Positions 35,303-39,618 of a stretch of DNA of 39,618 nucleotides are shown here, piece by piece; position 1 is the first letter of the stretch, and each line of letters begins with the position of its first letter. Source of the stretch: a virus. Location of the stretch: positions 1-39,618 of IMG/VR virus record IMGVR_UViG_3300031566_000150, one strand, 5' to 3'. The notes beneath the pieces were generated by a model. It worked only from the letters and a program-made list of their open reading frames with translations, did no database searches and was not told the DNA's origin. The translations under genes were made by a program, and so were the position numbers.

Positions 35303-35590
35303 ATGGAAAGGTTATTGACAATTGAGGAAAGAAATAAGTTTACCAGAGAAGCAGAGAAGCAAGCTAATAATTTACAACAAAGTGCTGAAGGGCATTTTAC
35401 TCTAGAGGACATTGAAGGCATTTATCAAGATGCTGATTCTGCTATGTTGGAAGCTCAAAGAGATTTAACACAAAGGGAGACCCTCAAGGCAGTAGGGGAA
35501 TGGATTTCAAATCATCCATTTAACACTCCAGAAGCTAAGGAATTTATAGAGTTTGTCGAAGCCCTAAAATGTGGTGAATTTCCAGGATAA
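35303..35590 (+). CDS. Hypothetical acidic helical protein (95 aa)
   Basis: Starts behind AAGGAGGTAAAAG. Glu/Gln-rich, helical throughout, no Cys motif. Its TAA overlaps the next ATG (TAATG), so it is coupled to the sigma-like regulator. No family recognised. Confidence 0.6.
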   Translation: MERLLTIEERNKFTREAEKQANNLQQSAEGHFTLEDIEGIYQDADSAMLEAQRDLTQRETLKAVGEWISNHPFNTPEAKEFIEFVEALKCGEFPG

Positions 35591-36006
35591 TGGGTAATGA
35601 AATTATGATTGACGATTGGTATAGTTACGGGCAATTCAAATTTAACGAATTTCAAATGCAATGGGCGATAAATAATTTAGCATTGTTAAAGACAGGATAT
35701 TGGGTTCCTCCTCCCGAAGGTTATGGAGAACGAGTTAACCATTCCACATTAAAGGGGGAAGCCAGTTTCGTTAAACCAGAAATTATTGCAGCTGAGGTTG
35801 AATCTAGGTTAGAAATGACAGGTAGGGATGGTGATTTATGTATGCTTCATTATCACAACGGAATGGCAGAATATGAAATTGCTCGGCTGATGAACTGGGA
35901 TGTGTGGGAAGTTACTAGGCGGATTGACAGAGCGATGAGATATATGAGTGGGTGGAAGCGCAAAAAAAGAACTTATCAAGAATTTATAAATCACCCCAAA
36001 AAATAG
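35590..36006 (+). CDS. ArpU/sigma-like late transcription regulator
   Basis: 138 residues and the last gene of the replication block, the usual place of a late-gene activator. The C-terminal half reads like region 4 of a sigma factor: DLCMLHYHNGMAEYEIARLM as first helices, then WDVWEVTRRIDRAMRYM as recognition helix, followed by a basic tail. Proteins of the ArpU/RinA type have this form. It probably controls late transcription from a site not identified here; the two copies of the 29-base element (12637, 25743) are candidates. Confidence 0.65.
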   Translation: MGNEIMIDDWYSYGQFKFNEFQMQWAINNLALLKTGYWVPPPEGYGERVNHSTLKGEASFVKPEIIAAEVESRLEMTGRDGDLCMLHYHNGMAEYEIARLMNWDVWEVTRRIDRAMRYMSGWKRKKRTYQEFINHPKK

Positions 36007-36090: not shown

Positions 36091-36119
36091 TTGACAAATA
36101 AACCTTAAAGATTTACGAT
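36091..36119 (+). promoter_or_regulatory. Sigma70-type promoter upstream of the structured RNA
   Basis: TTGACA (36091-36096), 17 bases, TACGAT (36114-36119). The expected start point is about 36126, which is exactly the first base of the first hairpin of the downstream structured segment. Confidence 0.7.
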
Positions 36120-36125
36120 AATTAA

Positions 36126-36345
36126 AGGGGATTACTATTCCCTCAGAGACCAACTCTTTATTTAATCTTCCTCGCTGATTCATTGATTTTCCAAACAGGT
36201 AATGCAGGGAATTGGCGAGGTTTGTTTTAAGATGGGTAACTCAGCAGTAATGTTGAGTAGCTTCGGCTTTCAATTCCCATCACAATAGCCAGCCAAGCCA
36301 GAGGTAGAACGGTGCCGTATCCTCTGGTAATGCTGGCTTCTTTAT
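36126..36345 (+). ncRNA. Candidate structured non-coding RNA (new class candidate)
   Basis: About 220 gene-free bases start right after a promoter and fold densely. P0: AGGGGAT (36126-36132)/ATTCCCT (36137-36143). P1: CCTCGCTGATTC (36170-36181)/GAATTGGCGAGG (36209-36220), 12 pairs with two G-U. P3: GATGGG (36231-36236)/CCCATC (36276-36281), enclosing P4 ACTCAGCA-GTAA-TGTTGAGT (36239-36258, GNRA loop) and P5 AGC-TTCG-GCT (36259-36268, UUCG loop). P6: AGCCAGC (36287-36293)/GCTGGCT (36332-36338) stacked on CCAGAGG (36298-36304)/CCTCTGG (36321-36327), then a T-rich run. GGGAATTG (36207-36214) can instead pair with CAATTCCC (36271-36278), breaking P1 and P3, so a switch is possible. No tRNA or RNA class that I know matches. 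It may be a trans-acting RNA or the leader of the small-gene operon. Confidence 0.6.
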
Positions 36346-36355
36346 ATCAACTAAC

Positions 36356-39300: not shown

Positions 39301-39618
39301 TCTCCTTTACCTCCTTTATTTGATAGCTTAACCTCTGAATACTGAGCGGATAAAATTTCCACGCCGGTTAACTTTTTATACCGCCTTGATGTTTCTTTAA
39401 AATTTTTAAGAGCAGCCAGAATTTCTAACCGGTTTGCATTTTTGAAGTGGAGAATATCTAGCCAACCTCCATTGCTTAGCTGACTTGTAAGGTATATGTA
39501 GAGTGTTTGATTGTGCTTATAAGCCCTTTTATATCCCCACCGAGGTGATAAGTAAGTGTAACTTCCAGTTCCACCTTTGTATAATTTACCTGTTAAATCC
39601 TCGTATTCTATTAAGGTA
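39297..39618 (-). CDS. Hypothetical protein, 3' part of the junction-spanning gene
   Basis: Continuation of the 113-residue leftward gene that starts at 110. The segment encodes a Tyr/Lys-rich middle (LYIYLTSQLSNGGWLD) and helical basic C-terminus (LEILAALKNFKETSRRYKKL), ending GGKGE. Its stop TGA overlaps the next ATG at 39300. The last 90 bases of the window duplicate positions 1-90. No family recognised. Confidence 0.75.
   Translation of the reverse strand, partial: TLIEYEDLTGKLYKGGTGSYTYLSPRWGYKRAYKHNQTLYIYLTSQLSNGGWLDILHFKNANRLEILAALKNFKETSRRYKKLTGVEILSAQYSEVKLSNKGGKGE
39529..39618. repeat. Terminal direct repeat, right copy (circular closure)
   Basis: Exact copy of positions 1-90; joining the two gives an intact leftward gene and a unit length of 39,528 bp. 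Confidence 0.95.

Follow-up and report, generated by a model that had tools for sequence, protein, structure and literature searches.

A hairpin of the NYN ribonuclease leader type in a structured RNA behind a Q-like phage gene

The DNA analysed here is an IMG/VR phage record (IMGVR_UViG_3300031566_000150) of 39,618 nucleotides, referred to in its full length as the window, in which some 220 bases behind a late-regulator-like gene raise the question of whether a structured RNA lies there and, if so, of which kind and with what role. Positions 39618 and 1 are contiguous in IMGVR_UViG_3300031539_000492, so that a complete or circularly permuted phage genome is probable, and the virus appears to be a phage of Dehalococcoidia-type bacteria. 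No ORF of 60 or more amino acids overlaps positions 36126-36345 on either strand, and the minimum free energy of this stretch is -80.4 kcal/mol as opposed to -55.5 +/- 4.3 kcal/mol for dinucleotide shuffles (z -5.83), with 0 of 200 shuffles equalling it. The structured, ORF-free RNA that had been proposed, with its helices drawn, from the letters alone (the sequence-only reading) is thus real, and the helices were recovered. Rfam gave no match for this RNA at gathering score, and the two microRNA models that were the only hits at E values up to 10 were judged to be due to chance; tRNA and tmRNA searches of the stretch gave no match either, in agreement with the earlier statement that no tRNA, tmRNA, GOLLD or ROOL is recognisable. 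The RNA is discussed below under two aspects, its position behind a Q-like gene and its content, a hairpin of the type found in NYN leaders (P3).

Table 1. Features of the window in the region of the structured RNA; the z values of P1, the three-way element and P6 refer to each element tested alone against mononucleotide shuffles.
Feature	Positions	Strand	Basis
Q-like late regulator gene, 138 aa, sigma-region-4-like HTH	35590..36006	+	PHROG 79, fold, homologues
Sigma-70-type promoter TTGACA-17-TACGAT, 10/12	36091..36119	+	motif; same layout in relatives
P1 hairpin at expected transcript start, loop ACUA	36126..36143	+	fold; z -4.6
P3 NYN-leader-type hairpin: AAUCUU + CCUCGCUGAUUC / GAAUUGGCGAGG + UUUGUUUU	36162..36228	+	model R1; fold
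Three-way element with GUAA and UUCG tetraloop hairpins	36231..36281	+	fold; z -3.7
P6 three-tier GC-rich hairpin (36287-36338), then UUCUUUAUAU; candidate leader terminator	36287..36348	+	z -5.5

Position of the RNA behind a Q-like gene

The protein encoded upstream of the RNA matches PHROG 79, "anti-termination protein Q-like", weakly (E 0.011), and its homologues, found in six other phages and one prophage with 26-35% identity, match the same family in three of seven cases (best E 0.0025). Its fold matches sigma region 4, and Q21 (6p18_Q) was found with a Z of 6.6 over 81 residues, below several sigma factors. The weak match and the fold are in keeping with the description of the adjoining gene as late-regulator-like. 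The consensus promoter that the same reading had placed before the RNA is present as a site, but is not above chance when taken alone, as 12 promoter-like sites were observed in this AT-rich region with 8.5 expected. It is supported by the relatives, which have the same arrangement: a TTGACA promoter lies behind the Q-like gene in L022, L034, L036, L069, L071, L194 (the G042 prophage) and L197, L034, L036, L069, L071 and L197 have a hairpin at the transcript start, as far from the -10 box as P1, and a terminator-like hairpin comes after gene and promoter in L022, L036, L069, L071, L194 and L197, the order of promoter and then terminator being clear in L022, L036, L194 and L197. Besides a NYN-type hairpin, L069 and L071 each have a canonical terminator as a separate element. 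In lambda, gene Q is followed by pR', 6S RNA and tR', and the position of the window RNA resembles this region. Further observations on the relatives are that TTGACAAT stands immediately past the -10 box in L071, L069 and L197, with a hairpin near +1 next to it, that the terminator AAGGAGTACnnAnGTCGTCC..GGnCGGCTTTTGC is common to L071 and L069, and that positions 11258-11315 of L034, in the late leader of G011, resemble an antisense tRNA fragment.

Among the helices outside P3, P6 is terminator-like without being canonical, and a terminator scan did not flag it because of its internal loops. The three-way element was not found in relatives, and a comparison of the remainder of the RNA (36229-36345) with 294 genomes of the class gave chance-level matches only. 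The proposal that mutually exclusive helices act as a switch had to be abandoned: the alternative helix between GGGAATTG (36207-36214) and CAATTCCC (36271-36278), when imposed on the fold, is less favourable by about 13 kcal/mol and has a pair probability of 0, and no more than 4 nt of such a complement survive in the remaining three phage copies. Assignment to a riboswitch or RNA switch class was rejected, as no conserved mutually exclusive pairing was found.

The NYN-leader hairpin family and its enzyme

Initial DNA and flanking-protein searches gave no homologue; metallophosphoesterase relatives (L003-L011) were rejected as carriers, the RNA being absent from them, and a scan of bacterial genomes for the capsid protein gave no match. 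P3 has a 12-bp stem in which 36170-36181 pair with 36209-36220 at a pair probability of at least 0.99. The covariance model R1, trained on host NYN leaders only, with phages excluded, finds P3 as the only match in the 39.6-kb window (34.6 bits, E 8e-9), and the homology of P3 to the bacterial NYN-leader hairpins is near certain. Across 23 host hairpins, 94% of the cells are paired and changes on both sides occur in 12 of 16 pairs, a level of covariation that 0 of 500 shuffles reach. The check for homologues and covariation that had been suggested together with the first description thus gave true homologues, with compensatory changes among the members of the P3 family; what had been missed is that P3, judged by its relatives, is not phage-specific, its family forming leaders of NYN ribonuclease genes in bacteria and prophages.

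Over the genomes of the class, which are mostly MAGs, R1 finds 49 hairpins in 39 genomes, mostly one copy per genome, and 37 of them lie upstream of NYN genes. Counted from the genes in 393 Dehalococcoidia-class genomes, a same-strand upstream hairpin accompanies 33 of the 40 close NYN genes, in most cases no more than 70 nt away, and 1 of the 36 distant ones. The order at host loci is promoter, hairpin and NYN start codon, with TTGACA mostly 41-57 nt ahead of the stem; one hairpin per NYN gene is the rule, two before one gene being found in few genomes. In non-training genomes from elsewhere in the phylum, 9 of 14 hairpins are directly upstream of NYN genes, and several orphan hairpins precede NYN pseudogenes or remnants. 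A dispersed repeat of the REP or MITE kind was rejected because of the mostly single copy per genome and the linkage to NYN. The family has no Rfam entry, and searches of the openly readable literature gave no earlier description of a NYN leader hairpin; the NYN-leader hairpin is a conserved RNA family not described in these sources. NYN-type hairpins with no recognisable NYN gene were also observed in L186 (G224, in tandem), L185 (G074) and L183 (G202).

The host gene encodes a NYN domain (Pfam PF01936, E 1e-10), whose catalytic residues D16, N19, D119, D144 and D146 show a conservation of 93% or more among 29 NYN proteins, and the best fold match of the predicted structure (pLDDT 89) is 2QIP, a protein of unknown function. 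The NYN proteins match the PADLOC candidate defence protein HEC-09 partially (E 2e-8, about 50 of 203 positions), one of them matches the PADLOC LabA-like model, and one NYN gene adjoins a type IIG restriction enzyme. Close homologues occur in only 34 of 393 class genomes, and also in prophages and as pseudogenes; INPHARED phages contain no NYN homologue and plasmids distant ones only. In the G042 prophage (L150, L194; G042:C1:1003387-1029000), NYN gene and leader hairpin lie between a serine recombinase and a repressor, and the prophage also has the Q-like gene, a late promoter, a terminator, the large terminase and a portal gene. The NYN gene of G042 is a possible prophage-borne defence gene, and a defence role of the family is a candidate function. 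Alternatively, the host NYN enzyme could have a housekeeping role, as an RNase that adjusts its own amount by cleaving its leader, and the phage would mature its late leader by the same cut. RNases of the RNase E and RNase III kind are autoregulated, and both the single hairpin per NYN leader and the intact catalytic residues would fit such a role; however, presence in so few genomes, in prophages and as pseudogenes is unlike a housekeeping RNase, and we consider this explanation unlikely.

Phage copies and the proposed mechanism

Four phages carry the hairpin, the window, G024, L064/L071 and L069, all of them near a Q-like gene, and R1 finds every one of the copies outside the window. G024, whose capsid protein is related and which has a Q-like gene, has 20 bases identical with the 12-bp stem of the window; the other copies, together with that of the prophage-like contig L065, were obtained with a 16-nt pattern taken from the 3' arm of the window-derived stem. 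The 5' arm AATCYTCCTCG, which lies outside the pattern, is common to L064/L071, L069 and L065, and the single-stranded flanks AAUC(U/C)U and UUUG are retained in hosts and phages alike, even though the search had been seeded with the 3' arm only. Lacking the 5' arm or the context of promoter, hairpin and NYN gene, 7 of 12 viral and 24 of 25 genome matches of the pattern were dismissed as chance. In L065 and the Dehalococcoidia genome L093, the hairpin is located between promoter and NYN-domain gene. No NYN homologue was found in the window genome or in the examined stretches of the other hairpin phages; the window hairpin is not upstream of a NYN gene, and the copy sits in trans. The Q-like proteins of the hairpin phages are about 26-35% identical, and the hairpin is absent from three relatives that share the Q-like gene. 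Beside the NYN-type hairpin, L062 (3086-3240) and L071 (minus strand) have a second conserved stretch, ATGAGGGGCTTATCC..GGGAAC(A/G)CCCCTC, with 84% identity over 82 bases.

The U-tracts after the phage hairpins comprise 7, 6, 5 and 4 of 8 positions, with a host mean of 5.8, and since they are within the host range a terminator function may apply. P3 could then be a NYN-leader attenuator reused as a tR'-type terminator or pause hairpin that the Q-like protein overrides, in keeping with the GC-rich stem and T-rich stretch in hosts and window and with its place between the late promoter and the late genes. Termination needs neither the conserved AAUCUU flank nor the asymmetric C(C/U)-GG side, however, while L069 and L071 have canonical terminators of their own and phage U-tracts go down to 4-5 of 8, so that such borrowing appears improbable.

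Sequence comparison establishes that the hairpins are homologous and covary, that they are linked to NYN genes and that the phage copies are linked to Q-like genes. The reading we favour is that the window encodes the leader of a late or middle promoter with a NYN-leader hairpin copy in trans, and that the phage RNA binds the NYN enzyme in place of the enzyme's own leader, which is a quite possible, though tentative, account. By analogy with established cases, the leader would be transcribed from the late (or middle) promoter with a start at about 36126, and transcription would stop or pause at P6, to be released by the Q-like protein. The NYN enzyme would recognise the base of the hairpin, comprising AAUCUU, the lower stem, the GG-rich 3' side and UUUG, and might bind its own leader hairpin as a regulator or antitoxin. 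By mimicking this hairpin, the phage RNA would sponge or neutralise the enzyme and shield the phage transcripts; the copy may thus serve as a decoy against the NYN enzyme or as a handle for it. More speculatively, NYN and leader hairpin could constitute a toxin-antitoxin or anti-phage module of Dehalococcoidia and their prophages, to which the late-leader mimic of the phage would be the counter-defence.

Mimicry is favoured by the performance of R1, which finds the window hairpin as sole match as well as all phage copies, by the retained flanks, the NYN linkage and the conserved catalytic residues, by the HEC-09 match, the neighbouring restriction enzyme, the prophage NYN gene and the hairpins before NYN pseudogenes, and by the precedent of pseudo-ToxI in PhiTE (PMC3475682). 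Counting against it are the apical stems, which are unlike those of the hosts and in the window contain a 27-nt insertion, the restriction to four phages and the three Q-like relatives without a hairpin. A leader without function might also have been left behind by recombination with a NYN-bearing prophage: prophages of this Q-like type contain the NYN module, and hairpins outlive the decay of NYN genes in chromosomes. Retention of both arms and flanks in four divergent phages, each time near a Q-like gene, speaks against such a relic, which we regard as very unlikely. The RNA element described here is new and conserved; it covaries strongly, its genetic partner is known, and phages have copies of it with no partner gene nearby, which makes both the recognition of the hairpin by the nuclease and RNA mimicry by the phage directly testable. 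To our knowledge, few cases of phage RNA mimicry, such as pseudo-ToxI, are known.

Comparison with known systems

The succession of Q-like gene, promoter and a leader some 200 nt long is shared with lambda, and the relatives also have terminators; as opposed to lambda Q, the window protein is a weak PHROG Q match that is structurally nearer to sigma region 4, and its antitermination activity is predicted. Among known nucleases, HEC-09 is matched partially by the host NYN proteins and the LabA-like model by one of them, and the literature searched on them describes no leader hairpin. Type III toxin-antitoxin systems (ToxIN, CptIN, TenpIN) consist of a promoter, a small structured RNA, a terminator-like hairpin and an endoribonuclease gene (PMC5086642). 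The host NYN module shares with them an RNA and an endoribonuclease gene under one promoter at most loci, but as a rule has no tandem antitoxin array, its hairpin is itself terminator-like, and its protein is NYN/PIN-like and not ToxN, CptN or TenpN. On the phage side, pseudo-ToxI of PhiTE is a phage RNA antitoxin mimic that titrates ToxN; it is built as a tandem repeat of pseudoknots, and its protective effect is proven (PMC3475682). The window RNA resembles it in being an intergenic non-coding phage RNA that looks like the partner RNA of a bacterial endoribonuclease, whereas it has a single hairpin, its putative target is a NYN-domain protein, and it is known from its sequence.
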